This document shows, in pieces, positions 3,494 through 43,628 of a DNA stretch of 43,954 bases; position 1 is the stretch's first letter; each line of letters begins with the position of its first letter. The stretch is from a virus: IMG/VR virus record IMGVR_UViG_3300043419_002111, positions 1 to 43,954 of that record. One strand, 5' to 3'. The translations under genes and the position numbers were made by a program. The notes beneath the pieces are model-generated. The model was not told the origin of the DNA. It saw only the letters and a list, made by a program, of their open reading frames with translations, and searched no databases.

Positions 3494-4204
3494 ATGTCTT
3501 TACCTATTATTTTAAACACACCGAAATATGAAGTTGAATTGCCGATTTCAAAGAAAACGGTTTCATATCGTCCTTACTTAGTTAAGGAAGAAAAACTATT
3601 AATGATGGCGTTAGAGTCTAAGGATCAAAAACATATCCTTAAGACAATTCAAGAAGTTATTGGTACATGTACATTTGGTGAACTAAACATCAAAGCATTA
3701 CCAACATCTGAATTAGAATTATTATTCTTAAAGCTTCGTGCTAAATCTGTAGGTGAAACATCTACGGTTGGTTATGAGTGCGGAGAATGTAAAACTACTA
3801 ATAATGTTACTATCAACTTGAATGATGTTGAGATTAAATTTGGTGAGAAAGTTGATCCAAAGATTATGTTGACAGATACAGTTGGTATTACACTTAAATA
3901 TCCAAACTCAGAAGATGTGTCTAAGACTATGTCCTCTGATTCAAGTGATATTAAGACAACATTTAATATTATTACTGCTTGTGTAGAATCAATCTTTGAT
4001 ACAGAGAACGTTTATCAAGCAAAAGATATGCAGAAAAAAGATATTGAAGAATTTATTGATTCATTAAACTCTCAGCAGTTTGCTAAGATCCAAGAATTCT
4101 TCGTATCGATTCCAAAACTATCCCATCAGGTTAGTTTTAAATGTGAGAAATGTGGCTCAGACAACGACATCACTGTCGAAGGTTTGCAGCATTTTTTCGC
4201 ATAG
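3494..4204 (+). CDS. 26: Baseplate hub protein gp26-like
   Basis: This is a 236-residue member of the T4 baseplate gp26 family (T4_baseplate), involved in hub assembly. I chose the ATG at 3494, preceded by TTGGAG six bases upstream, over the in-frame ATG at 3482. The N-terminus SLPIILNTPKYEVELPIS is typical. Two CxxC pairs, C96/C99 (ECGEC) and C217/C220 (KCEKC), could form a zinc site. The gene ends on a run of T with a canonical slippery heptamer (4192-4198) just before the stop, so an extended product of about 301 aa may also be made. Confidence 0.8.
   Translation: MSLPIILNTPKYEVELPISKKTVSYRPYLVKEEKLLMMALESKDQKHILKTIQEVIGTCTFGELNIKALPTSELELLFLKLRAKSVGETSTVGYECGECKTTNNVTINLNDVEIKFGEKVDPKIMLTDTVGITLKYPNSEDVSKTMSSDSSDIKTTFNIITACVESIFDTENVYQAKDMQKKDIEEFIDSLNSQQFAKIQEFFVSIPKLSHQVSFKCEKCGSDNDITVEGLQHFFA
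4192..4198 (+). promoter_or_regulatory. Candidate -1 ribosomal frameshift site T TTT TTC
   Basis: In the gp26 frame the sequence reads T TTT TTC GCA TAG: an X XXY YYZ heptamer one codon before the stop. A -1 slip continues as R-I-A-L-S-H-D-D into the ORF ending at 4398. A 6-bp stem ACCTCG/CGAGGT (4220-4225 with 4237-4242) lies about 22 nt downstream. The slip site and open frame are seen; frameshifting itself is inferred. Confidence 0.55.
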
Positions 4205-4251
4205 CTCTCTCACATGACGACCTCGCTAACCATTATCGAGGTAATTTCATT

Positions 4252-4398
4252 ATGATGCAACATCACAAGTATAGTTTGACTGAATTGAACGAGATGTTGC
4301 CATGGGAGAGAGAAGTTTACGTTGCTATGTTAGTTGAATATGTTAAAGAAGAAAATGATAGAATAAAACAAGTAAATTCCAAATACGGAAAGATGTAG
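4252..4398 (+). CDS. Small hub-assembly protein or frameshifted C-terminal extension of gp26
   Basis: As a separate gene it would start MMQHHKYSLTELNEML (48 aa) with GAGG 10 bases upstream. The segment YSLTELNEML-PWEREVYVAML is a conserved motif I recall immediately after gp26 in related phages (gp51-like or gp26-fused region). The open frame extends upstream without stops into gp26 in the -1 frame, and the peptide RIALSHDDLANHYRGNFIMM looks protein-like. The only SD sits in the 3' arm of a hairpin. Both an independent small protein and a fusion product are possible. Confidence 0.65.
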   Translation: MMQHHKYSLTELNEMLPWEREVYVAMLVEYVKEENDRIKQVNSKYGKM

Positions 4399-4407
4399 GA
4401 AACTAAT

Positions 4408-4857
4408 ATGACAGAAGAAGTCAAACCACAAATGAGCGAAAGCGAAAAGAAAAAAGAAGATTGGATGAACAGCAAATGGCGTCCAATGATGGGATGGATG
4501 TACATGGTTGTTTGTACAGCCGACTTTGTTTTATTCCCTATTCTTTGGTCTTTAGTTCAAGTTATTGGTGGTGGAAAAGTTGAAACACAATGGTCGCCTA
4601 TTACTTTACAAGGCGCAGGACTTTTCCATATGGCTATGGGTGCAATCCTTGGTATCGCAGCTTATGGTCGTACACAAGAAAAATTAGGTGGTGCTAATAA
4701 TGGTGGTGCAGCAGTTCCAACTCCAGTAACTCCATCAGTAACACCTGCAGTTCCAGCACCATCAGTGTCTGTACCATCTGTAGCTGTACCATCAGTGGCT
4801 GCACCAGCGGTGGCAAAACCACCACCAGTTATTGCAGTACCACCAAAGGTAAGTTAA
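4408..4857 (+). CDS. Putative holin (three-TM GTA-type family)
   Basis: The 149-residue product has a charged N-terminus, the motif NSKWRPMMGWMYMVVCTADF, a second hydrophobic segment around residues 40-52 and a third, LQGAGLFHMAMGAILGIAAY. These match the 3TM holin family of gene transfer agents and many myophages, which makes inner-membrane holes for endolysin release. After residue 95 comes an unusual 50-residue tail of P-A-V-S-x repeats (PAVPAPSVSVPSVAVPSV), probably disordered. The SD AGGAAACTA precedes the start, and the next gene begins one base after the stop. Confidence 0.7.
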   Translation: MTEEVKPQMSESEKKKEDWMNSKWRPMMGWMYMVVCTADFVLFPILWSLVQVIGGGKVETQWSPITLQGAGLFHMAMGAILGIAAYGRTQEKLGGANNGGAAVPTPVTPSVTPAVPAPSVSVPSVAVPSVAAPAVAKPPPVIAVPPKVS

Positions 4858-4858
4858 T

Positions 4859-6601
4859 ATGGCAACCAAGTACGTAACGTCTAAAGAAAATATTGCAGCT
4901 CTTATTCAAGAGGTGCAAAAAACCAATGCGCTCATGATCGAGGCACAGCCAAAAGATGATGAGCGTAATGCTTCTTTAAAAAGTATTGCTGAAGATATAA
5001 AAACAAATATAGCTTCCATAGCATCTGAAACTTGGGCTACTGCTTATAATACTAAAGCTTTTAACGATAATCTTGTTGTTTTAGCTGGATTTATTCGCGA
5101 ACATCAAGACGCAATATTAGACTTAGCGACTAGTTCTAACTATGCTTTGCAGAAAATCAACAATGAAATGGTTGACTCTGCAGAAAGTATGAAAGCCATG
5201 CATGAAGCGGCTGAAGCAGATAGACTAAAACAAAAAGAATTAACTGCTGAACAGACAAAGCATAACGAAGCTATCCTTGCTGCGCTTCAAAATCCTAAAG
5301 AATCTCCTCAAGCAAAAGCTATGAAGGGTGATAAAGAGAAGGATGCTAAGAAGGGTAACTTCGGCTCCATGATGAAAGATCTTGGCGAAGGCATGTTCAA
5401 TGCAGGTAAAGGTTTACTTGCTATGGCTGCTGCAATTTGGGTCTTAGCAAAAGCATTTGGTGATTTTAGTAAACTTTCATGGTCAGATATGTCTAAGGGA
5501 TTATTAACCCTTGGTGCATTAACTGTTGCTGGTGCTGTAATTGGTAAAGGAAACGGTAAAGATAGTTGGAAACCACTCTTAGCAATCGGTGGTGCTATGC
5601 TTATCTTAGCAGAATCATTTAGACAGTTTAGTAAATTAGATTGGTCAGAAGTAGCTAAAGGTATTGTAGTATTAGGTGCATTGGCTATCGCTACTAAACT
5701 AATGAACGGAGCCACAGGCGCATTAACAATCTTAGCTGTTGCAGGTGCGATGTTTATCTTAAGCGAATCAATGGGTAAGTTTGCTGCTCTTGATTGGGAA
5801 GGTATAGCTAAAGGTGTTGTAGTATTAGGCGGATTAGTAGCAGCAGTGTTATTATTAGGCGCAACTGCACCTGTTGCATTACTTGGTGCTGCGGCCATGA
5901 TCGCTGTTGCTGGTGCATTGTATATTGCTGCGAAGGCATTTGAAGTAGTCGCAGGAACAATGGACACATTTACAGCTGGTCTAGAAAGACTTGCTAAGGT
6001 AGATGGAACAGGATTATTAACTACAGCTGGTGCACTTGGTGCATTAGGTGCTGCTATGGCTGCATTCGCCGTAGGTCAAGCAGCAGCAGGTTTAGGCACA
6101 TTAATCTCTAACCTATTAACTATTGGTCAAGATTCTCCTGTTGATCAGATTTTAAAGTTATCAAGAGCTGGTGATGGTTTATTAAAAACTGCTGAAGGTC
6201 TAAGTAGAATTGCTGATGCGATGGCTAAGTTTGCTGCGATTAGTCCTGATAGTATGAAGGCAATCAATGAATTCCCATGGGTTAGAATGACTGCCTTTGC
6301 ACAAGCGGGTGGACAAATGACGGTGAATGGTGCTACAGTAGGTAAAGCACCGATAGCTGCTCCTCAACCACCTGCGGCCGCCGAACTAAGTAATGTTCAA
6401 AGTAAGAACGTTCAAGGTACTACTGTTGCTGAGGTATCAAGAGCTGAGGCAAACGTTCAAGCCATGGCAGAAGGTCGCCGCCCAAGCTTTGATAGAGCAC
6501 GTCCAGAGGGAGGTAAGTATAGCCAACCTCAGATTGTTCCACTCACAGCACGTACAACTAAATGGGATCCAGAAGATGCAATGGCTCGTGGCGCACGTTA
6601 A
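4859..6601 (+). CDS. Tail tape measure protein (gp29-like)
   Basis: This 580-residue protein is close in length to T4 gp29 (590 aa), the hub/tape-measure protein. It has a helical N-terminal half to about residue 155, then at least three hydrophobic repeats of about 40 residues built around FSKLSWSDMSKGLLTLGAL, FSKLDWSEVAKGIVVLGAL and FAALDWEGIAKGVVVLGGL. This W-x5-KG-x-x-x-LG pattern is typical of tape measures. A polar C-terminal domain follows. At about 0.15 nm per residue, 580 residues would span roughly 87 nm. It is the last gene of the rightward virion operon. Confidence 0.7.
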   Translation: MATKYVTSKENIAALIQEVQKTNALMIEAQPKDDERNASLKSIAEDIKTNIASIASETWATAYNTKAFNDNLVVLAGFIREHQDAILDLATSSNYALQKINNEMVDSAESMKAMHEAAEADRLKQKELTAEQTKHNEAILAALQNPKESPQAKAMKGDKEKDAKKGNFGSMMKDLGEGMFNAGKGLLAMAAAIWVLAKAFGDFSKLSWSDMSKGLLTLGALTVAGAVIGKGNGKDSWKPLLAIGGAMLILAESFRQFSKLDWSEVAKGIVVLGALAIATKLMNGATGALTILAVAGAMFILSESMGKFAALDWEGIAKGVVVLGGLVAAVLLLGATAPVALLGAAAMIAVAGALYIAAKAFEVVAGTMDTFTAGLERLAKVDGTGLLTTAGALGALGAAMAAFAVGQAAAGLGTLISNLLTIGQDSPVDQILKLSRAGDGLLKTAEGLSRIADAMAKFAAISPDSMKAINEFPWVRMTAFAQAGGQMTVNGATVGKAPIAAPQPPAAAELSNVQSKNVQGTTVAEVSRAEANVQAMAEGRRPSFDRARPEGGKYSQPQIVPLTARTTKWDPEDAMARGAR

Positions 6602-23742: not shown

Positions 23743-25686
23743 ATGAAGCGCTTACTTGTGTCCTTACTATTATTAGTAAGCACGGTTGTTGCACGTGCTG
23801 AACTTGTTACGATCCAAATTCCTGGTGCTCCTCCTGGATTGTCGATAACAGTTGGAACAGGCGCTAATGCTTTACCTTTACAAAATATTCGCACAAATCC
23901 AAATGCAGTTAATATTACTGCAGCTGATGACGATTGGCGCAATGTTCCATTAGGTTTTGATTTTCCATTTTTTGGTAGAGTGTTCAATAATTCATGGGCA
24001 ATGACTAATGGCGTTGTAACGTTCCAAGATCCAATGCAAAGCGGTGCTTATGGATTATGTTGTACAGGTGTTGATTTAAGAACAACAACAGATCCTCGTT
24101 ACAATTACTCTATTTTTGGTATACACACAGATTTATATTCTTGGAATGGCCAAAACCAATATTACCTGCGTGAAGGTAATAGTATGACATATGGTTGGTA
24201 TAATTTAAGTCAATGTTGTTCATCACAAGGCGGTAATAGTTTTGAGATTAAAATCAACTCTGCTGGTTTAGTTGATACACGAATTGCTGGTGCCATGGTA
24301 CAATGGAATGCAGTTACTTCAGGTATGTCTGGTAACTTGGCAAATGGTGAGTATTATCAATACTATCACGGCCGAGGTTTAAACATTACGCCTGGAAGTG
24401 CAAGTATTTTTAGTTGGCAAGCACCTAATGGTACAGGTCCAGTTGACATGTGTATCATCAATCCATTATCATCACCAACATGTCCAGGATATCAAGTTGC
24501 TTACACTGCTCAACAATGTACAATAAGTGCATTATTTGATCCATCTTGTCCAGGATATGCAGCTGCACACTTAACACAACAATGCTCTACAAATCCATTG
24601 TATAGTCAACAATGTCCAGGTTATCAAGCTGCTTATTTACAACAACAATGCTCTATTAATCCATTATATTCTACAACATGTAGTGGTTATCAACAAGCAT
24701 ACTTCGAGCAACAATGTTCATTGAATACACTATATTCTGTGAACTGTCCAGGTTATGCGACAGCTTATTTAGAATTACAATGTTCATTAAATCCATTATA
24801 TTCTACAACGTGTAGTGGTTATCAACAAGCTTACAAAGCACAGCAATGTTCTATCAATGCGTTATATGCTACAGATTGTCCAGGATATCAAGAAGCATAT
24901 TTTAGTCAACAATGTACAATAAGCGGTTTGTATTCTACTCGTTGCCCAAATTATGGTGAAGCGTATGCTACTCAACAAGCATTACAAAGACAAAACACAC
25001 CTACTACTACGACAACAACTACTGTTGCCGAAACTGTAGTTGTAGCATCTAATACAAATACATCATCAACTCCTGTAGCGGTGATATCAGATCCAGTTGT
25101 TAATAACGTTGTTACATCAACATCTACATCTGCGTCTCCTGCGGCAGCAGCGACTACTGCTGTTAGTTTAACACCTTCAGTTAGTTCTACGAGCACATCT
25201 TCACCAACTTCTGTTACGTCAGTCGCTACAGCACCTGCACCAGCCAAAAAAGAAGAACCTAAAGAAAATGCTCCATCAAATACACAAGCATCTTCTGGTG
25301 GATCTACAACAACTGCATCAACAAATAATAGTAAAACTTCAGATAGTCCAAAACCAACTGCACGCCAAGAACTTCAAGCAAGACGTGAAGCAGCAGCAAA
25401 AGCTAAAGCAGTTGAGGATGGTAAAAATTTAGCTGGAAACATGGGTAAAGCTGCTGATATGGAACAGCAAAAGCAAATTCAAAACGTAGTTATCCAAGCA
25501 ATGGGTTTTACTCCAGGATTTGATGCTTATCAAGTAAAAATGCCAGATGTGGCAGGTTACAAACCATTTACAGTATACAACAATCAAAAGACTATTGATA
25601 ATCGTCGTGCAAGTATGGGACTATTTGGTCCTTCAGATAAAGTGCACTATGATATGGTTGATTCACAATATAACAGAAAGGATTGA
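23743..25686 (+). CDS. Exported repeat protein with eight 22-residue Cys repeats
   Basis: The 647-residue protein has a signal peptide (MKRLLVSLLLLVSTVVARAE). Residues 25-235 form a beta-rich domain with PLGFDFPFFGRVFNNSWAMT and TNGVVTFQDP, typical of nidogen-like or PEP-CTERM-associated exported domains. Residues 237-412 are eight tandem units of the form C-x9-C-P/S-G-Y-x3-A-Y-x4. A Ser/Thr/Val-rich linker, a basic helix and a conserved C-terminus (VIQAMGFTPGFDAYQVKMPD) follow. Adhesion or attachment is plausible, but a T4-type virion protein with a Sec signal would be odd. Confidence 0.8.
   Translation: MKRLLVSLLLLVSTVVARAELVTIQIPGAPPGLSITVGTGANALPLQNIRTNPNAVNITAADDDWRNVPLGFDFPFFGRVFNNSWAMTNGVVTFQDPMQSGAYGLCCTGVDLRTTTDPRYNYSIFGIHTDLYSWNGQNQYYLREGNSMTYGWYNLSQCCSSQGGNSFEIKINSAGLVDTRIAGAMVQWNAVTSGMSGNLANGEYYQYYHGRGLNITPGSASIFSWQAPNGTGPVDMCIINPLSSPTCPGYQVAYTAQQCTISALFDPSCPGYAAAHLTQQCSTNPLYSQQCPGYQAAYLQQQCSINPLYSTTCSGYQQAYFEQQCSLNTLYSVNCPGYATAYLELQCSLNPLYSTTCSGYQQAYKAQQCSINALYATDCPGYQEAYFSQQCTISGLYSTRCPNYGEAYATQQALQRQNTPTTTTTTTVAETVVVASNTNTSSTPVAVISDPVVNNVVTSTSTSASPAAAATTAVSLTPSVSSTSTSSPTSVTSVATAPAPAKKEEPKENAPSNTQASSGGSTTTASTNNSKTSDSPKPTARQELQARREAAAKAKAVEDGKNLAGNMGKAADMEQQKQIQNVVIQAMGFTPGFDAYQVKMPDVAGYKPFTVYNNQKTIDNRRASMGLFGPSDKVHYDMVDSQYNRKD
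24451..24978 (+). repeat. Eight tandem 66-bp coding repeats
   Basis: Eight in-frame units of 22 codons encode C-x-I/L-N-x-L-Y-x3-C-P/S-G-Y-x3-A-Y-x2-Q-Q. Each unit has two cysteines, at positions 1 and 11. Units four and six are the most alike (NPLYSTTCSGYQQAY), indicating recent duplication or conversion. Confidence 0.9.
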
Positions 25687-33142: not shown

Positions 33143-33216
33143 TGGGGTGAAAGGGGGAATCGAACCCTCTCTTATTGTTTCACAGACAATCGTGCAGCCA
33201 CTACACTACTAACACC
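33143..33216 (-). tRNA. tRNA-His(GTG)
   Basis: Anticodon stem ATTGT/ACAAT with loop CTGTGAA, T-loop TTCGATT, discriminator C and encoded CCA, as expected of tRNA-His. Two acceptor positions are T-T mismatches. Confidence 0.85.
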
Positions 33217-33254
33217 ATAGATCGAAATACACTCAGTGAATATACTTTGATTTA

Positions 33255-33329
33255 TGGTAGGGGCACAGAGAATCGAACTCTGATTATCTGGTTAAAAGCC
33301 AGGTACTTTAGCCGTTAAGTTATACCCCC
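33255..33329 (-). tRNA. tRNA-Lys(TTT)
   Basis: Acceptor GGGGGTA/TGCCCCT, anticodon loop CTTTTAA, T-loop TTCGATT and encoded CCA. The D-loop retains GG. Confidence 0.93.
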
Positions 33330-33357
33330 ATAGGTTTTCGAGGTTTATGTTTTCGTT

Positions 33358-33591
33358 TCATTTACGTTCTTTCTTTACACGACCAATGCGTGATTTTTTA
33401 TTCCAATCATATGCAATGCCATCTGGACATATTCCGTCTTTAATAGAATCTACGCCAAATACACCACATGCTTCAAAATCTTTCCCTTTGATGGTTACAA
33501 ACCGTCCATAATGTTTAGCAAAAATCATTGCATCATCCAACGTTGGACTAGCATTCAATGTGAAACCATCTTTAGTTATTATATAAAACAT
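33358..33591 (-). CDS. Conserved small phage protein in the tRNA array
   Basis: The 77-residue product MFYIITKDGFTLNASPTLDD continues FVTIKGKDFEACGVFGVDSI and ends KDGICPDGIAYDWNKKSRIG. The CGVFGVDS-I-x-DG-x-CPDG-x-x-Y-x-W string is one I recall from short proteins in unrelated tailed phages. It lies between tRNA-Lys and tRNA-Gly and would be cotranscribed with them. Function unknown. Confidence 0.75.
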   Translation of the reverse strand: MFYIITKDGFTLNASPTLDDAMIFAKHYGRFVTIKGKDFEACGVFGVDSIKDGICPDGIAYDWNKKSRIGRVKKERK

Positions 33592-33619
33592 TCTTTAAAA
33601 ATTAGCAGCAATTCTTTAT

Positions 33620-33693
33620 TGGAGCGGGATGCGAGAATCGAACTCGCAACTACAACTTGGAAGGATGTCGTTTTACCACTAAACTAATCCCGC
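33620..33693 (-). tRNA. tRNA-Gly(TCC)
   Basis: Acceptor GCGGGAT/ATCCCGC, D-arm with GG, anticodon loop CTTCCAA, T-loop TTCGATT, discriminator T and encoded CCA. One T-T mismatch in the anticodon stem. Confidence 0.92.
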
Positions 33694-33750
33694 ATTGGCG
33701 ACGCAGGTGTAGAATCTAATCTATCTTTCCTTGCTACCCACGCCATTGTT

Positions 33751-33824
33751 TGGCATCCCGGGAGGGACTCGAACCCCCACTAACGGTTTTGGAGACCGCA
33801 GTGCTGCCATTACACCACCGAGAC
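33751..33824 (-). tRNA. tRNA-Trp(CCA)
   Basis: Anticodon stem GCGGT/ACCGT with loop CTCCAAA, T-loop TTCGAGT, discriminator G and encoded CCA. Confidence 0.93.
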
Positions 33825-34093
33825 ATATTAAGATGAAGATAATGAATCAATTCAAACCTGCGACAAGTCGCTCAGCAATCTGCATTAAGCAATTTGCAAT
33901 AAGCAGACCACAAACAATTGGTTCTCGAGAGCAATAAGCAGCGACTTTTCGAGTCATGTTATTCGAGAGCAATTATGTATAAGTTGGTCGATTGTTCGGA
34001 TTAAGCTTTCAGGGCTTAAACCTATCCAGTAATGGATAGTTTTGTGCGCTTGTCAAAATGCAAGGCTCTCCTATCATCACTATCTTCAAAACT
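33825..34093. other. Non-coding gap with inverted and direct repeats
   Basis: No gene is seen. AAGTCGCT (33865-33872) pairs with AGCGACTT (33940-33947), TCGAGAGCAAT is repeated at 33925 and 33963, and CTATCCA/TGGATAG (34022-34039) forms a GTAA-loop hairpin. It may hold one or more small structured RNAs. Confidence 0.5.
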
Positions 34094-34669
34094 TTAGATA
34101 ATGCCTTCTGCAGTCAAAGTTACCTTTGTTTTATCTGTCAACTCAATTAGAGTATTGACATTCAACTGCAAAAGCTTATCGCTTAATGCTTGCTTTTCGC
34201 GCTTAAGGCGTTTTACTTCCTCTTTAGCTACGCGAATAGCTTCTTCTGTTGCAACACCAGTTTCTACGTTGCTTAGACGATCACCATACAGTGACATTCT
34301 ATCGCCAGTAGCAGACTTAGCTTTCACGATACGTGCATTGATCTCTGTGATCTCTTTACGTGGTGTGCTTGTTGCAACAACTGTTTTTAGGTTGATCTTC
34401 GCATCGAAGTTTTCAACTTCAGCCAAAAGATCGCTAATACCTGCAGATGCGTTTGCACGACCAACTGCAGCACGAATTTGGAATAGCGCATCGTTAAGCG
34501 CTTCTTTACGTTCAACCGCTTGGTTGAACTCTAATGCACCTTTACTCAAAGCTGCATCTACATCACTAGTGAATTCACTTACTGTGATGTTATTTTCTAC
34601 CTTTACGCTGCTGATTGCCTTGCGGATTTCAGACTGAATAGCGTTTGCTTTACGAAGATTGATTTGCAT
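34094..34669 (-). CDS. Coiled-coil phage protein
   Basis: The 191-residue product begins MQINLRKANAIQSEIRKAIS and is mostly coiled coil, with EFNQAVERKEALNDALFQIR and ATEEAIRVAKEEVKRLKREK. The C-terminal NVNTLIELTDKTKVTLTAEG may be a small strand domain. I recall N-L-R-K-A-N-A-x-Q openings in phage proteins of unknown role. It is inside the tRNA array, with its own promoter 26 bp upstream. Confidence 0.75.
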   Translation of the reverse strand: MQINLRKANAIQSEIRKAISSVKVENNITVSEFTSDVDAALSKGALEFNQAVERKEALNDALFQIRAAVGRANASAGISDLLAEVENFDAKINLKTVVATSTPRKEITEINARIVKAKSATGDRMSLYGDRLSNVETGVATEEAIRVAKEEVKRLKREKQALSDKLLQLNVNTLIELTDKTKVTLTAEGII

Positions 34670-34694
34670 ATTATTCCTTTACAATGTATAATCT

Positions 34695-34723
34695 ATTATA
34701 TCACATTCAACACAATTTGTACA
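34695..34723 (-). promoter_or_regulatory. Phage early-type promoter (copy 10)
   Basis: Minus strand: -35 TGTACA (34718-34723), 17-bp spacer ending TGTGA, -10 TATAAT (34695-34700). It drives the 191-aa gene and the tRNAs beyond it. Confidence 0.83.
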
Positions 34724-34733
34724 TGTAGTACTT

Positions 34734-34828
34734 TGGTACTCCCGACCGGATTCGAACCGATATCATTCCCTCATCTAGAGACATCGCCAAGGTATAAGCT
34801 TGGAGTTTTACCGTTAAACTACAGGAGC
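34734..34828 (-). tRNA. tRNA with anticodon TAT and a long variable arm
   Basis: Acceptor GCTCCTG/CGGGAGT, D-arm GTTTAACGGTAAAAC, anticodon stem CCAAG/CTTGG with loop CTTATAC, T-loop TTCGAAT and encoded CCA. The anticodon would read AUA (Ile), yet the variable region is 25 nt with a 4-bp stem, as in class II tRNAs. Confidence 0.8.
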
Positions 34829-34836
34829 ACTGTCTC

Positions 34837-34911
34837 TGGTGCGCAATGATGGAATCGAACCACCATCTCGAAGTTCGTAGCCTCGAATATTGTCCATTAT
34901 ACTAATCGCGC
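34837..34911 (-). tRNA. tRNA-Arg(ACG)
   Basis: Acceptor GCGCGAT/ATTGCGC, anticodon stem CGAGG/CTTCG with loop CTACGAA, T-loop TTCGATT and encoded CCA. A34 would need conversion to inosine by host TadA. Confidence 0.88.
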
Positions 34912-34915
34912 GCAT

Positions 34916-34991
34916 TGGTCCCAACTTCTGGTTACGCTCCAGACTATCTGGCTTTTCAGACCAGCGCTTTCACTAGATTAGCTTAATTGGG
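34916..34991 (-). tRNA. tRNA-Phe(GAA), aberrant T- and D-loops
   Basis: Acceptor CCCAATT/AGTTGGG, anticodon stem CTGGT/GCCAG with loop CTGAAAA, T-stem TCTGG/CCAGA and encoded CCA. The T-loop is AGCGTAA and the D-loop lacks GG, as in the Val and Ile(GAT) tRNAs. Confidence 0.85.
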
Positions 34992-34992
34992 A

Positions 34993-35250
34993 TTATTCTT
35001 CTACAACTGCAATCACATTTTCCTCTGCGATTACAAAAAACGTTTTATCTTTATATGATGATTTTGATGCATACTGCCAATCAACTACTACTACATCATC
35101 AACTTTTACTTCTGTAACGTTATCTCCAATAGCTAACACTTTTGAATGTTTAACATCAGTGCGTTTACCTTGTAGAATAATTCCTGAACTCGATACATTT
35201 TCAGTAGCGATCTCTTCGATTATAACGTTCTTACGTAATGGCTTTATCAT
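34993..35250 (-). CDS. GroES-like co-chaperonin (gp31-like)
   Basis: The 85-residue protein MIKPLRKNVIIEEIATENVS has the GroES/Cpn10 fold: SSSGIILQGKR is the mobile-loop region, KVLAIGDNVTEVKVDDVVVV the barrel core and VIAEENVIAVVEE the C-terminal signature. It resembles GroES more than T4 gp31 in length, and would pair with host GroEL to fold phage proteins. It is set between tRNA-Phe and tRNA-Leu and probably depends on their transcription. Confidence 0.88.
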   Translation of the reverse strand: MIKPLRKNVIIEEIATENVSSSGIILQGKRTDVKHSKVLAIGDNVTEVKVDDVVVVDWQYASKSSYKDKTFFVIAEENVIAVVEE

Positions 35251-35266
35251 ATCATCCTATATTATG

Positions 35267-35349
35267 TGGTGCCCCAAGAGAGACTCGAACTCTCACGCAC
35301 TAGGCACTGGCTTCTAAGACCAGCGTGTCTACCATTCCACCATCGGGGC
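35267..35349 (-). tRNA. tRNA-Leu(TAG)
   Basis: Class II with variable arm TGCCTAGTGCGT. Acceptor GCCCCGA/TTGGGGC, anticodon stem CTGGT/GCCAG with loop CTTAGAA, T-loop TTCGAGT, CCA encoded. Confidence 0.93.
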
Positions 35350-35355
35350 ATTATT

Positions 35356-35431
35356 TGGAGCGGGATAAGAGGCTCGAACTCTCGACCTATACCTTGGCAA
35401 GGTATCGCTCTACCAACTGAGCTAATCCCGC
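35356..35431 (-). tRNA. tRNA-Gly(GCC)
   Basis: Acceptor GCGGGAT/ATCCCGC, D-loop with GG, anticodon stem ATACC/GGTAT with loop TTGCCAA, T-loop TTCGAGC, CCA encoded. Confidence 0.93.
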
Positions 35432-35436
35432 ATATA

Positions 35437-35628
35437 TTAATCTACACTACCTTTGATTTTTAAATCTGGGATAGTTGCTTTAATTTTTACTTCTTTTTCA
35501 TCTTTTACTTCTTCAACGTTTTCTTCTTTTGGAAGATCACGTTGAAAAATTGTATCCCATCGTTTATCATATTCATCTTGTGATACACTAAACGGTCTTG
35601 GTTTACATCCTTTTCCACCATCACTCAT
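35437..35628 (-). CDS. Small conserved protein (KPRPFSVS motif)
   Basis: From the ATG at 35628, with AGGAG upstream, the product is 63 aa. MSDGGKGCKPRPFSVSQDEY is followed by DKRWDTIFQRDLPKEENVEE and an acidic/basic tail. The G-K-G-x-K-x-RPFSVS-x-x-E-x-x-x-x-WD-x-IF motif is common in small proteins of T4-type phages. The longer ORF upstream would run into tRNA-Pro and is rejected. Confidence 0.75.
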   Translation of the reverse strand: MSDGGKGCKPRPFSVSQDEYDKRWDTIFQRDLPKEENVEEVKDEKEVKIKATIPDLKIKGSVD

Positions 35629-35641
35629 ACTAACTCCTAAA

Positions 35642-35718
35642 TGGTCGGAGTACAAGGATTCGAACCTTGGACCCCCTGGTCCCAAACCAGGTGCGCTACC
35701 AGACTGCGCTACACTCCG
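35642..35718 (-). tRNA. tRNA-Pro(TGG), first copy
   Basis: Acceptor CGGAGTG, anticodon stem CCTGG/CCAGG with loop TTTGGGA, T-loop TTCGAAT, CCA encoded; C1-G72 as usual for bacterial tRNA-Pro. Confidence 0.93.
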
Positions 35719-35728
35719 ATAAATTTAT

Positions 35729-35802
35729 TGGTGCTCCATGATGGAATCGAACCACCTTCGTCGGACTACAAAACCGATATAATACCAATATACGAATAGA
35801 GC
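35729..35802 (-). tRNA. tRNA-Thr(TGT), less regular
   Basis: Acceptor GCTCTAT/ATGGAGC, T-arm GGTGG/CCATC with loop TTCGATT and CCA encoded. The anticodon stem TCGGT/TCCGA ends in a T-T pair and the loop reads TTTGTAG, so the anticodon is best read as TGT, less securely than for its neighbour. Confidence 0.7.
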
Positions 35803-35810
35803 AAAAACTT

Positions 35811-35885
35811 TGGTGCCGGTTGTCGGGATTGAACTGACGACCTACCGCTTACAAGGCGGTTGCTCTACCACTGAGCTAAACCGGC
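35811..35885 (-). tRNA. tRNA-Thr(TGT)
   Basis: Acceptor GCCGGTT/AACCGGC, D-loop with GG, anticodon stem ACCGC/GCGGT with loop CTTGTAA, T-loop TTCAATC, CCA encoded. Confidence 0.93.
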
Positions 35886-35907
35886 GTACTAATTATATAT
35901 CAACAAC

Positions 35908-35982
35908 TGGTGGTAACGATTGGATTCGAACCAATGTTAGCTTCCGTATGAAGAAAGTGCAAGGCCTCTTTGCTACGTTACC
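35908..35982 (-). tRNA. tRNA-Met/Ile2(CAT), first copy
   Basis: Acceptor GGTAACG/CGTTACC, D-arm GCAA/TTGC with GG, anticodon stem CTTTC/GGAAG with loop TTCATAC, T-loop TTCGAAT, CCA encoded. CAT could serve Met, or Ile after lysidine modification. Confidence 0.9.
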
Positions 35983-36107
35983 ATTTAGAATCATACTCGA
36001 TACATTCGCTGGTGCTGGCACACTTGCTTTTCGCCCTCTGCCAGGAGGACCGAATGTTACCCGCTAATCTTGGCGGTTGGCACCCGTCGAGTCTGATTTT
36101 AAATGGT
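35981..36107 (-). ncRNA. Structured RNA candidate next to tRNA-Met
   Basis: TTTAGAATCATACTCGA (35984-36000) pairs with TCGAGTCTGATTTTAAA (36087-36103), with one mismatch and one wobble; flanks extend it. Inside, ACATTCG pairs with CGAATGT (36002-36008/36051-36057), CTGGCA with TGCCAG, and CCGC with GCGG (about 36061/36072). It resembles a cloverleaf-like RNA but has no tRNA signatures. T4 has two stable RNAs in its tRNA cluster. Confidence 0.5.
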
Positions 36108-36394
36108 GTCAGGTGATTACGCACACCTGACAATGCGGGGTCTGTAGACTATTGACGATTTATCTCATTATACGCGGTCAATAAACGCGAGTGCGGAATT
36201 TGTAAGTAATGCAACCATCATTATATGCATCATTCACCCATTTATCAAGGCGCGCTGGGACTCGGTACGTCATTACAGTTACTTATCCAACGTTTTCTAT
36301 TTTTGCTAGGGTATTGCGCCCCACGTTGTTTACACTTGCTTTTGCTGGCCAGCTACTAACAAATGTGACTTTCACTTACTAACACTTACAAAAC
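36107..36394. other. Non-coding gap in the tRNA array
   Basis: About 290 bp lack a tRNA or credible ORF. TGTCAGGTG (36107-36115) and CACCTGACA (36124-36132) form a 9-bp hairpin. TATTGAC/GTCAATA, TAAGTAA/TTACTTA, CAACGT/ACGTTG and GCTGGCCAGC are further inverted repeats, so one or two structured RNAs may lie here. Confidence 0.4.
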
Positions 36395-36479
36395 TGGTGG
36401 GGACAGAAGGATTCGCACCTACTAGTCCGAAGAAACTGATTTACAGTCAGCCGCGACCCTCTAACTTCGCCGTGTCCCC
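36395..36479 (-). tRNA. tRNA-Tyr(GTA)
   Basis: Class II with variable arm. Acceptor GGGGACA/TGTCCCC, anticodon loop CTGTAAA, T-loop TGCGAAT (T55 replaced by G), CCA encoded. Confidence 0.92.
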
Positions 36480-36485
36480 ATAAAT

Positions 36486-36563
36486 TGGCTGTGCTCCTAG
36501 GGATCGAACCTAGCTCATTCCTGATTAACAGTCAGGCGCATACACCTTGCTTGCTCGAGCACA
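36486..36563 (-). tRNA. tRNA-Asn(GTT)
   Basis: Acceptor TGTGCTC/GAGCACA, anticodon stem CCTGA/TCAGG with loop CTGTTAA, T-loop TTCGATC, discriminator G, CCA encoded. Confidence 0.92.
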
Positions 36564-36571
36564 ATAAAAAA

Positions 36572-36630
36572 TTTGTTGTCAAGATCTCTACTTAAAGTTT
36601 ATCAGCAAGCTGACACACCTTAACAACAAA
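36572..36630. other. Stem-loop between tRNA-Asn and tRNA-Met
   Basis: TTTGTTGTCAAG (36572-36583) pairs with CTTAACAACAAA (36619-36630) with one mismatch, and an inner TCAGC/GCTGA helix follows. It may be a processing signal or a small RNA. Confidence 0.45.
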
Positions 36631-36632
36631 AC

Positions 36633-36705
36633 TGGTTGCGGGCATAGGACTCGAACCTATTCCCAACTAGCTTATGAGACTAGCGTCACGCCATGTGAAC
36701 CCGCA
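36633..36705 (-). tRNA. tRNA-Met/Ile2(CAT), second copy
   Basis: Acceptor TGCGGGT/GCCCGCA, anticodon stem CTAGT/GCTAG with loop CTCATAA, T-loop TTCGAGT, CCA encoded. The D-arm is short. It lacks the three G-C pairs typical of initiator tRNA. Confidence 0.88.
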
Positions 36706-36713
36706 ATAAAACT

Positions 36714-36788
36714 TGGCGATCCTGCGGGGAATCGAACCCCGATATCCGACTAGACAGGCCGGTATAATAACCACTATATGACAGGACC
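36714..36788 (-). tRNA. tRNA-Asp(GTC)
   Basis: Acceptor GGTCCTG/CAGGATC, anticodon stem CCGGC/GTCGG with loop CTGTCTA, T-loop TTCGATT, discriminator G, CCA encoded. Confidence 0.93.
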
Positions 36789-36789
36789 A

Positions 36790-37020
36790 TTAATTAGTGT
36801 TGCTATGTTATGGACAACAATAACCCTATTGCCGTTTGCTTTTATCGTGTCAACTTATATGGAGCATTCGTCAATGCTTTATCCAACTTCGTTACGAGAA
36901 TCATGGGCATGACCCATAATCCTCTGACATCAACTCGTAACGGGTGTGTGCACACAGAGCCGTCAGTGAGAGTGCATTATCCAAGTGAACACTGGATTTT
37001 TCCACAACAACACTAATTAA
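36790..37020 (-). ncRNA. Compact structured RNA candidate (231 nt)
   Basis: A perfect 13-bp helix, TTAATTAGTGTTG (36790-36802) with CAACACTAATTAA (37008-37020), closes the element exactly between tRNA-Asp and tRNA-Ile. Inside are CGTTACGAG/CTCGTAACG (36890-36898/36934-36942, 9 bp), ATGGG/CCCAT, AGCATT/AATGCT and ATCC...GGAT hairpins. There is no credible ORF. I place it on the strand of its neighbours. This is an undescribed stable RNA candidate, analogous in position to T4 RNA C/D. Confidence 0.6.
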
Positions 37021-37094
37021 TGGTACTCTCAAAAGGTAACGCTCCTTTGTCTCTAGGTTATCAGCCCAGTGCTCTACTTTTGAGCTATGAGAGT
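37021..37094 (-). tRNA. tRNA-Ile(GAT), aberrant T- and D-loops
   Basis: Acceptor ACTCTCA/TGAGAGT, D-stem GCTC/GAGC, anticodon stem CTGGG/CCTAG with loop CTGATAA, T-stem AAAGG/CCTTT, CCA encoded. T-loop AGCGTTA and D-loop AAAAGTA lack the usual T-loop/D-loop contact bases. Confidence 0.87.
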
Positions 37095-37098
37095 ATAT

Positions 37099-37173
37099 TG
37101 GTACTCGGTACGGGAATTGAACCCGTCTCTACGACTTGAAAGGCCGTTGATCTAACCGATAATCTAACCGAGT
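37099..37173 (-). tRNA. tRNA-Glu(TTC)
   Basis: Acceptor ACTCGGT/ACCGAGT, anticodon stem ACGGC/GTCGT with loop CTTTCAA, T-loop TTCAATT, CCA encoded. A promoter lies just upstream. Confidence 0.93.
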
Positions 37174-37186
37174 ATAACTTACATCT

Positions 37187-37215
37187 ATTATACCACACTT
37201 TTAATGTGTTGTACA
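37187..37215 (-). promoter_or_regulatory. Phage early-type promoter (copy 11)
   Basis: Minus strand: -35 TGTACA (37210-37215), 17-bp spacer ending TGTGG, -10 TATAAT (37187-37192). It boosts transcription of the second half of the tRNA array. Confidence 0.88.
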
Positions 37216-37225
37216 CTAGTTTTTT

Positions 37226-37301
37226 TGGCGTCGCTGGAGAGATTCGAACTCCCAACCCACGGTGTAGAAGACCGATGCACTATCCATTGTGCTACAGCGA
37301 C
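37226..37301 (-). tRNA. tRNA-Arg(TCT)
   Basis: Acceptor GTCGCTG/CAGCGAC, D-stem GCAC/GTGC, anticodon stem TCGGT/ACCGT with loop CTTCTAC, T-loop TTCGAAT, CCA encoded. Confidence 0.93.
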
Positions 37302-37307
37302 ATTATT

Positions 37308-37391
37308 TGGTGCGACTGACCGGACTCGAACCGGTACGAATAAATCGTCAGATTTTAAGTCTGATGCGGCTACCAATTACGCCACAGTCGC
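37308..37391 (-). tRNA. tRNA-Leu(TAA)
   Basis: Class II with variable arm CGATTTATTCGT. Acceptor GCGACTG/CAGTCGC, anticodon stem TCAGA/TCTGA with loop CTTAAAA, T-loop TTCGAGT, CCA encoded. Confidence 0.93.
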
Positions 37392-37400
37392 ATTATATTT

Positions 37401-37478
37401 TGGAGGTGCGAGTCAGATTTGAACTGACGGTTTTACGGGTTTGCAATCCGTTGCCTTGGACCACTCGGCCACCGCACC
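37401..37478 (-). tRNA. tRNA-Cys(GCA)
   Basis: Acceptor GGTGCGG/TCGCACC with discriminator T, which is diagnostic of Cys; anticodon loop TTGCAAA; T-loop TTCAAAT; CCA encoded. Confidence 0.9.
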
Positions 37479-37488
37479 ATAAATTAAT

Positions 37489-37562
37489 TGGTCTCCGCGG
37501 AAGGAATCGAACCTTCTCCTCGAGTATCCAAGACTCGTCGACTACCATTATCCTACACAGAG
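37489..37562 (-). tRNA. tRNA-Pro(TGG), second copy
   Basis: Acceptor CTCTGTG/CGCGGAG, anticodon stem CGAGT/ACTCG with loop CTTGGAT, T-loop TTCGATT, CCA encoded. It is clearly not a recent copy of the first Pro tRNA. Confidence 0.88.
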
Positions 37563-37570
37563 ATTAAATT

Positions 37571-37645
37571 TGGTGGAGCTGTGGAGACTCGAACTCCAAT
37601 TCTCGACGTGCAAAGCCGATGTAATTCCCTCTATACTACAACCCC
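37571..37645 (-). tRNA. tRNA-Ala(TGC)
   Basis: Acceptor GGGGTTG/CAGCTCC, with a G-T pair at the third position and another wobble at position 5; anticodon stem TCGGC/GTCGA with loop TTTGCAC; T-loop TTCGAGT; CCA encoded. Confidence 0.9.
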
Positions 37646-37650
37646 AAATT

Positions 37651-37741
37651 TGGTGGTGAATGCAGGATTCGAACCTGCGGACCGTTTAACACGATCTTTT
37701 GTTTAGCAAACAAACGCAATAAGCCTCTCTGCCAATTCACC
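37651..37741 (-). tRNA. tRNA-Ser(GCT)
   Basis: Class II with a long variable arm. Acceptor GGTGAAT/ATTCACC, anticodon stem TTTGT/ACAAA with loop TTGCTAA, T-loop TTCGAAT, CCA encoded. Confidence 0.93.
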
Positions 37742-37749
37742 ATTTTTAA

Positions 37750-37831
37750 GTACACTTACCAGAATCGAACTGGTGACCGGAAAGCTATCCAGCTATGTTC
37801 CACATAAACGCCTAGCCTCAGCGTCAGTGCA
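37750..37831 (-). tRNA. tRNA-Ser(GGA), no encoded CCA
   Basis: Class II. D-arm with GG, anticodon loop GTGGAAC, T-arm ACCAG/CTGGT with loop TTCGATT. The acceptor is irregular and the 3' end reads CTTAAAA instead of CCA; it is flanked by a palindrome (TTTTTAAGTACAC and GTGCACTTAAAAA). It may need host CCA addition or be decaying. Confidence 0.65.
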
Positions 37832-37839
37832 CTTAAAAA

Positions 37840-37931
37840 TGGTGGAAGCGGTGAGATTCGAACTCACGGACCGCGCTAACGATCGTCTGTTTTCAAGACA
37901 GGTGCAATAAACCGGGCTCTGCCACGCTTCC
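37840..37931 (-). tRNA. tRNA-Ser(TGA)
   Basis: Class II with long variable arm. Acceptor GGAAGCG/CGCTTCC, anticodon stem CCTGT/ACAGA with loop CTTGAAA, T-loop TTCGAAT, CCA encoded. Confidence 0.92.
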
Positions 37932-37985
37932 AAATTGCTGCAAATTTTTAAAGAACATTTGATCTTACGATCTGATTGAGGTATG

Positions 37986-38014
37986 ATTATACCACAACCG
38001 TTTTACTTTGTACA
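37986..38014 (-). promoter_or_regulatory. Phage early-type promoter (copy 12)
   Basis: Minus strand: -35 TGTACA (38009-38014), 17-bp spacer ending TGTGG, -10 TATAAT (37986-37991). It starts the tRNA-Ser(TGA) end of the array. Confidence 0.88.
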
Positions 38015-38043
38015 TAGTTTTTTCAAACTATTTTCAAATATTT

Positions 38044-38117
38044 TGGCGGGGCTAGCAGGATTCGCACCTACGATAGTTGAGTCAAAGTCAACTGTGTTAC
38101 TGCTACACTATAGCCCT
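38044..38117 (-). tRNA. tRNA-Gln(TTG)
   Basis: Acceptor AGGGCTA/TAGCCCC (first pair A-C), D-stem GTGT/ACAC with loop AGCAGTA (no GG), anticodon stem GTTGA/TCAAC with loop CTTTGAC, T-loop TGCGAAT, CCA encoded. First tRNA of the array. Confidence 0.88.
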
Positions 38118-42250: not shown

Positions 42251-42937
42251 TCACTTTTTAGGTGCAAGGTTTTTTCTTGTAGTTTTGGTTGGTTGTTTTG
42301 CTGCAGGTTGTTTTGCTGCGGGTTTCTTAGCAGCAGGTTTACTTTGTAGTTTTTCATGTTCTTTGGCCAATTTCTCAAATTTCTTTTGACGCTCAGTTAG
42401 ACGCTTCAATACTTCTTCGCCATCCATCCAAATGTCTTTATTGTCTAACAATGATGCAATCTCAGGAGCGTGTAAGAAACCAGCATATACACGATTCAAT
42501 AGATGTTCTGACCACTTACGTTCATGTACAATGTTATCAAACATCTCTCCACCTTTACCAAACGTTGCGCTTGAGTAATTGTGGAACATAAACATAGAAT
42601 GCTCACTTACTTCATAAGTATCAGCACACAAGAAAATCATAGTTGCAGCTGACATACATGCGCCTTCAACTGAACAAATTACGTGTGCATTTGTATCAGC
42701 GATGGCTCGCATAAATTGAATAGCAGTGAATAGATCACCGCCGCAAGAGTTGATGTGAATTTGAATAACATCATTCTCACCAGCATTACGAATCAATTCA
42801 AACCATGCAACATATTCTGTTGGATCTTCGATGCTTCCACTAAGGTAAAAGGAATGAAGTTGATTGATTGGTTTATTAACAAAAGCTTTCTGTAACGAAG
42901 AACTTTGTTGTGTTTGAGTTGGATTATTTCGAGGCAT
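42251..42937 (-). CDS. ClpP-like serine protease
   Basis: From the ATG at 42937 the product is 228 aa. It has the ClpP/crotonase fold: INSCGGDLFTAIQFMRAIAD, then VEGACMSAATMIFLCAD with the catalytic serine S96, and HSMFMFHNYSSATFGKGGEM with H119. About 45 C-terminal residues are Lys/Ala/Pro repeats (KPAAKKPAAKQPAAKQP), probably disordered. T4-type phages carry ClpP-like proteins whose partner unfoldase is unknown; cleavage of a host or scaffold protein is possible. It overlaps the RecB-like gene by 14 bp. Confidence 0.85.
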   Translation of the reverse strand: MPRNNPTQTQQSSSLQKAFVNKPINQLHSFYLSGSIEDPTEYVAWFELIRNAGENDVIQIHINSCGGDLFTAIQFMRAIADTNAHVICSVEGACMSAATMIFLCADTYEVSEHSMFMFHNYSSATFGKGGEMFDNIVHERKWSEHLLNRVYAGFLHAPEIASLLDNKDIWMDGEEVLKRLTERQKKFEKLAKEHEKLQSKPAAKKPAAKQPAAKQPTKTTRKNLAPKK

Positions 42938-43628
42938 AACTAATTCCTTTTTCTTTTTCATATGATCTTATCTTATGTATCAAGTTACCCACATGGTTAT
43001 CTCTGTGCTCTTTGAACACCAGAGGCTCACTACTGTTTTCCACTGCCATAATCGTAACTAAGTTGACGATTGGCTTTTTGGTTCTTTCTTCGTACATGAT
43101 TGCGTACGCTGATTCTTGTTCGTAATAATCTGTGATGCTTTCCGCTGTTTTGATTCTTGACGACGTTTTGAAGTCAATGATAGACGGTACTCCATCGAAT
43201 TCTGCGATAAGGTCAACTCTGCCAGCCAATCTGAGGAAGTTTGAATAGAGCGGCACTTCTTGCATGTATACCACTCCAATTCGCTCATCCAAGATTGGTT
43301 TGATTGAGTTGAACATTCCCCGCACGTGCGGCATTGCTTCGCCAAAGTAATCTTCCTCGTTATCTATGTAACGTTCACAAATAGTGTGAAGAGATGTTCC
43401 TCTTCCGCTTGCACGTGCAGATATTTTGTTGGCTTCTGCTTCACCAACTCTCTTACGCCATGCAAGGATTTCGTGTTTTGTGAAGTGTCCTAATACGGTA
43501 GTGATAGAAGGATACTTAAATCCTTCTGGTGTAACATAGCGACGACCTTGGTCAGTAGACTCTGTAATTAAGTCTGCATAACCCAAATCTACTGGATCAT
43601 GTTTAAAGATCTTCCTCATTTGCATCAT
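42924..43628 (-). CDS. RecB/Cas4-like PD-(D/E)XK exonuclease
   Basis: From the ATG at 43628 the product is 234 aa. KYPSITTVLGHFTKHEILAW and RASGRGTSLHTICERYI supply the N-terminal helix and conserved H; LAGRVDLIAEFDGVPSIIDF with KTSSR gives the D...D-x-K nuclease core; YYEQESAYAIMYEE is the final QxxxY motif. It is typical of small RecB-family nucleases of T4-type phages, active in recombination or host DNA breakdown. Start alternatives are 43625 and 43619. It overlaps the small upstream gene. Confidence 0.88.
   Translation of the reverse strand: MMQMRKIFKHDPVDLGYADLITESTDQGRRYVTPEGFKYPSITTVLGHFTKHEILAWRKRVGEAEANKISARASGRGTSLHTICERYIDNEEDYFGEAMPHVRGMFNSIKPILDERIGVVYMQEVPLYSNFLRLAGRVDLIAEFDGVPSIIDFKTSSRIKTAESITDYYEQESAYAIMYEERTKKPIVNLVTIMAVENSSEPLVFKEHRDNHVGNLIHKIRSYEKEKGISYASK

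Follow-up and report, generated by a model that had tools for sequence, protein, structure and literature searches.

A predicted −1 programmed frameshift at the end of gene 26 would give an unannotated phage a short and a long tail-assembly chaperone

The stretch of viral DNA analysed here, 43,954 nucleotides long and referred to below as the window, very probably encodes two chaperones for its tape measure protein from a single gene 26, by −1 programmed frameshifting that would yield a short form (TAC-N) and a long form (TAC-NC). As we infer from the site and its relatives, slippage would take place during translation, with a presumed efficiency such that most ribosomes would halt at the TAG at 4202 and release the 236-residue gp26 (TAC-N). 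In a minority, the two Phe-tRNAs paired with T TTT TTC, one in the P site and one in the A site, would shift one base back (TTT TTC to TTT TTT), a slip probably aided by a Shine-Dalgarno-like GAAGGT upstream, and the slipped ribosomes would translate 66 more codons to make a 301-residue gp26-gp51 fusion (TAC-NC). The chaperone role is proposed from gene position, from homology to gp26 and gp51, and by analogy with lambda gpG/gpGT: TAC-N would coat the tape measure protein, the extra domain of TAC-NC would recruit tail tube subunits, and neither form should stay in the virion. A −1 frameshift producing a chaperone pair of the G/GT type had been put forward in the first-pass annotation of this DNA, and comparative evidence now strongly supports it.

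The gp26 homologue occupies positions 3494–4204 of the + strand (236 residues, 0 frame). It belongs to PF12322 (T4_baseplate; E = 1.4e-65, 221.5 bits), membership being taken as a profile score above the gathering cutoff of 24.5, and it matches the baseplate hub profile phrog_150 with E = 1.3e-67. Its AlphaFold model has a pLDDT of 89.7; a PDB fold search with this model returned no significant match, the best chaperone being HK97 gp13 (2ob9; E = 2–3, probability 0.23–0.28). The gene ends in GAA GGT TTG CAG CAT TTT TTC GCA TAG, and thus carries the slippery heptamer T_TTT_TTC in the 0-frame phase at 4192–4198, one codon ahead of the stop TAG at 4202–4204, just as first annotated. From the heptamer onwards, the −1 frame is free of stops until the TAG at 4396–4398, so that the −1 extension, a T or ‘gp51’ domain of 66 codons plus stop, spans 4198–4398 of the + strand. 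The predicted fusion, whose junction reads ..QHFFRIALSHDD.., adds up to 235 + 66 = 301 residues, the size that had been estimated for it alongside the 236-residue form. The earlier description of a −1 frame open from about 4150 to 4398 holds at its downstream end; position 4150 is merely where that frame has its first ATG within gp26, and the meaningful part starts at the heptamer. Among window ORFs of at least 100 residues, T_TTT_TT occurs eight times in frame, and a single occurrence, that of gp26, is at most about three codons away from a stop, which together with the conservation described below indicates that the placement of the heptamer is not due to chance. Elsewhere in the window, no tRNA-Phe, which would decode the slippery TTT and TTC, was found in an array of 24 tRNA genes on the − strand (33144–38117); given that the window is a fragment, this absence may mean nothing.

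Relatives were gathered as 80 contigs found via the window gp26, 80 via a gp26 alignment and 80 via an alignment of the extension, plus isolate genomes, using gp26 and T-domain search patterns that exclude the slip site. All 194 distinct loci carrying the downstream domain motif have T_TTT_TTN in the same phase, with C as the last base in 128, T in 50, A in 15 and G in one. The −1 frame is likewise open in 194 of 194, as against about 9% of shuffled segments. The refuting condition set in the first-pass annotation, namely relatives that have neither the heptamer nor an open −1 frame, did not hold: both features are present in every close and moderately distant relative. A 0-frame stop follows the heptamer at a distance of zero or one codon in 165 of 178 relatives (TTC and TTT sites). 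The codon preceding TTT may specify Ser, Asn, Asp, Ala, Gly or His, yet its wobble base is invariably T, compared with a background T fraction of 0.33–0.76; this invariance fits the expectation that two Phe tRNAs re-pair in tandem. Eleven loci without the search motif lie outside the 194-locus count. In four, the site and domain are present and were missed by the regular expression (L130, L131, L141, L165); L013 and L158 are truncated where the contig stops; L092 and L093 keep the heptamer beside a diverged domain; a different site is used in L094 and L095; and L098 lacks an extension.

In Ackermannviridae and in Vibrio phage D504, the gp26 stop is likewise followed by an open −1 frame encoding a T-like domain (HGYSIFEISESMPWHL), and T_TTT_TTN is absent. 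Such T-like open −1 frames without the heptamer were located at L094:4756-4960, L095:4801-5010, L259:2238-2450 and L260:2298-2500. Three Ackermannviridae genera share GAR ATT TTC ATT TAA, which is possibly a non-canonical slip site; the corresponding end in Vibrio D504 is CTT TTC AAG TAA.

Several lines of comparison indicate that the −1 frame encodes protein. In a profile search, residues 2–64 after the slip match phrog_634 (gp51, baseplate hub assembly catalyst) with E = 1.4e-26, a match that takes in about 18 residues upstream of the first ATG (4252). The extension also matches the end of phrog_150, the gp26-family profile; the length of this profile (282) and its match to T4 gp51 show it to span the fused form. 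The pre-ATG segment between the heptamer and the YSLTE block (−1 codons 5–17) is constrained in its own right: pairwise differences at codon positions 1, 2 and 3 number 2511, 1685 and 5958, these counts and the codon statistics being drawn from related sequences and hence not representing independent events, and stops occur in 0 of 183 segments in the −1 frame versus 134 and 177 of 183 in the other two frames. Since codons 5–17 precede the usual annotated start, they are most simply accounted for by ribosomes arriving from gp26.

The constraint on this segment bears directly on the reading implied by GenBank annotation, for instance of Melnitz and P-TIM40, in which a small gp51 is made from its own ATG, its translation perhaps being coupled to the end of gp26, and no fusion arises. 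In the window, that would correspond to a 48-residue product of the ORF at 4252–4398 (+ strand, ORF scan), whose ATG has a Shine-Dalgarno-like GAGGT 9 nt upstream; in Vibrio V09, Cr30, phiM9 and Marzo the candidate ATG overlaps the gp26 stop. We consider a separate gene very improbable as the sole explanation. Protein conservation and −1 codon constraint extend past the ATG up to the heptamer, and a separate gene leaves the invariant wobble T before TTT TTN without a reason. The start itself is not conserved: among 178 relatives, no conserved start codon of an independent gp51 was found, its first −1-frame start codon varying in place (codon 20–21 in 76 of 178), and one relative (L227) has no start codon at all ahead of the conserved motif. 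In 158 of 178 relatives, the −1 frame also lacks a start codon upstream of the site. The only Shine-Dalgarno-like sequence ahead of ATG 4252 would moreover be hidden by a predicted hairpin (ACCUCG...CGAGGU, 4220–4242, + strand), although the fold of the RNA from 4199 to 4270 is not significant (z = −1.35), and T4 has the fused protein as a single ORF. Separate initiation of gp51 could nevertheless occur alongside frameshifting. In KVP40-like phages, phiM9, Cr30 and Marzo (L087:4011-4015, L088, L089, L092), the ATG overlaps the gp26 stop as TAATG or TGATG, and there both frameshifting and stop-start coupling could feed the −1 frame.

Upstream of the heptamer, the Shine-Dalgarno-like GAAGGT (4178–4183, + strand), 8 nt 5′ of the slip site, probably acts as a frameshift stimulator, a role that codon bias in the relatives suggests. 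A GGN codon stands at this fixed distance of 8 nt in all 157 relatives scored, as part of a GARGGN element. Within that element, GAG accounts for 72 of 113 Glu codons, compared with a share of 26% in the rest of gp26, and GGR is enriched over background at the glycine codon. A conserved downstream stimulatory structure was rejected as a candidate, since RNAalifold found none in 30 relatives and the window hairpin is not significant; lineage-specific hairpins are modestly enriched, with z < −2 in 20% of 110 relatives versus 7% and 4% in control segments.

The same features weigh on a second reading, in which RNA polymerase would add or skip bases in a T6–T8 run and the fusion would be read in the 0 frame from part of the mRNA. 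Runs of seven or eight T are indeed present in 50 of 178 relatives. The other 128, and the window itself, have only T6 followed by C, and six T is short for polymerase slippage. Slippage during transcription needs no phase, yet the only phase in which the run occurs is the one where two tRNAs can re-pair in tandem, and the upstream Shine-Dalgarno-like codon bias points to the ribosome. Transcriptional slippage is accordingly judged very improbable. Lastly, decay or sequencing error, in which a formerly fused gene was broken by an indel, would account for the way that one −1 step unites two homologous parts, but is already refuted, with practically no chance left to it, by one identical break, identically placed, across 194 distinct contigs and isolates (S-PM2, P-SSM2 and P-TIM40 among them) and by purifying selection on both frames.

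The genes around gp26 are in keeping with programmed frameshifting in a tail-assembly chaperone. Between 2223 and 6601, the + strand encodes, in order, a DNA end protector, a tail-tube family protein, the gp26 homologue, the short −1 frame, a holin-like protein and the tape measure, a layout resembling that of Methylophilales phage Melnitz and cyanophages such as P-TIM40. The overlapping gp26 and −1 frames thus lie upstream of a tape measure gene, as had been noted at the outset, with one holin-like ORF in between. This ORF (4408–4857, + strand) encodes a membrane protein matching GTA_holin_3TM (E = 2e-7) and the holin profile phrog_3427 (E = 7e-9). The tape measure protein, the presumed client of the chaperones, is encoded at 4859–6601 on the + strand (580 residues; phrog_4372, tail length tape measure, E = 6.7e-24). 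Three further features of the window were recorded. A 15-nt repeat (VPSVA) occupies 4758–4814, in the C-terminal part of the holin-like ORF. A Cys-containing tandem repeat of 22 residues with a 66-base period, of the GYQQAYLEQQCSLNPLYSTTC type, lies at 24576–24902 within ORF 23743–25686, whose 647-residue product has no PHROG match. On the − strand, 42251–42961 encodes a ClpP-like protein that matches both the ATP-dependent protease and the head maturation protease families.

The first-pass annotation knew of no report of a T4-type gp26 frameshift, a statement that is out of date. T4-like chaperones were identified by Vladimirov, Gautam and Davidson (2022; Virology 566:9-15, PMID 34826709), a study known here through the papers citing it: one, on phage Adele (2025, PMC12846349), refers to it for −1 slip sites of the poly-T type in T4-like TAC-N genes, and another, PRFect (PMC10885494), for some T4-like phages having one short gene plus a longer one that encodes the fusion. 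As far as these accounts go, the kind of frameshift is known in T4-like tail-chaperone genes, and the window is a newly found, unannotated case. Among the papers searched, none on a cyanophage gp26/gp51 frameshift was found. Sullivan et al. 2010 (PMC3037559) reported that cyanophage gp51 is short of about 200 N-terminal residues, in a paper where the word frameshift is absent; the frameshift and fusion would explain why these residues are missing. Atkins et al. 2016 (PMC5009743) still gave T4 as the exception. Public gp26-family phage records examined list either a separate small gp51 or nothing, and the joined product is absent from all of them, including S-PM2, P-SSM2, P-TIM40 and the KVP40-like V09.

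Taken jointly, the evidence leads us to favour, on balance, a broader proposal. Outside the T4 branch, the majority of gp26-lineage phages (marine Kyanoviridae-like, KVP40-like, Aeromonas P19, phiM9, Cr30, pf16, Menderavirus) would have the small ‘gp51’ only as a frameshift extension, reached via T_TTT_TTN and a codon-selected Shine-Dalgarno-like stimulator and without an independent protein, and the long gp51 of T4 would have arisen when duplication and fusion took the place of frameshifting. The ‘hub assembly catalyst’ gp51 would thus be the long tail-tube/tape-measure chaperone. With the fusion annotated, a core tail gene is set right in an ocean virus group that ranks among the most abundant, and gp51 gains a testable role.

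Phage lambda G/GT likewise pairs a short protein with a rare −1 fusion, both encoded ahead of the tape measure; no sequence homology to lambda is claimed, and the window differs in having the holin-like ORF between chaperone and tape measure. The lambda slip site is G_GGA_AAG, that of the window T_TTT_TTC. T4 offers a homologous comparison: its gp26 is of the same family as the window gp26, and its gp51 combines a gp26-like domain (residues 1–201 match PF12322, E = 3.9e-52) with the C-terminal domain of the −1 extension (residues 200–244 align with the T domain by hhalign). On these alignments, T4 gp51 is a pre-fused, hard-wired form of the gp26-gp51 fusion in one ORF. T4 makes its two proteins from two divergent genes, 26 and 51, with no frameshift, whereas the window would make both from one gene and a frameshift. 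A long chaperone encoded as its own fused gene in T4 agrees with the PRFect account (PMC10885494) of short and fusion genes in T4-like phages. In T4, gp51 has long been regarded as essential for assembly, with no function assigned to it (PMC3004832). The TAC genes of Vandenendeviridae and Andersonviridae (Adele, PMC12846349) share a conserved −1 shift, poly-T at the TAC-N 3′ end and an unbroken −1 frame, and their −1 part was likewise formerly annotated as a separate small gene; they differ in using a GTTTTT motif and in belonging to other phage families. Judging from the subject of the paper, the TAC genes of T4-like phages treated by Vladimirov et al. 2022 are of the same family as the gene described here, to which the present analysis adds another, unannotated genome together with statistics on the wobble T, the start codons and the Shine-Dalgarno-like element.
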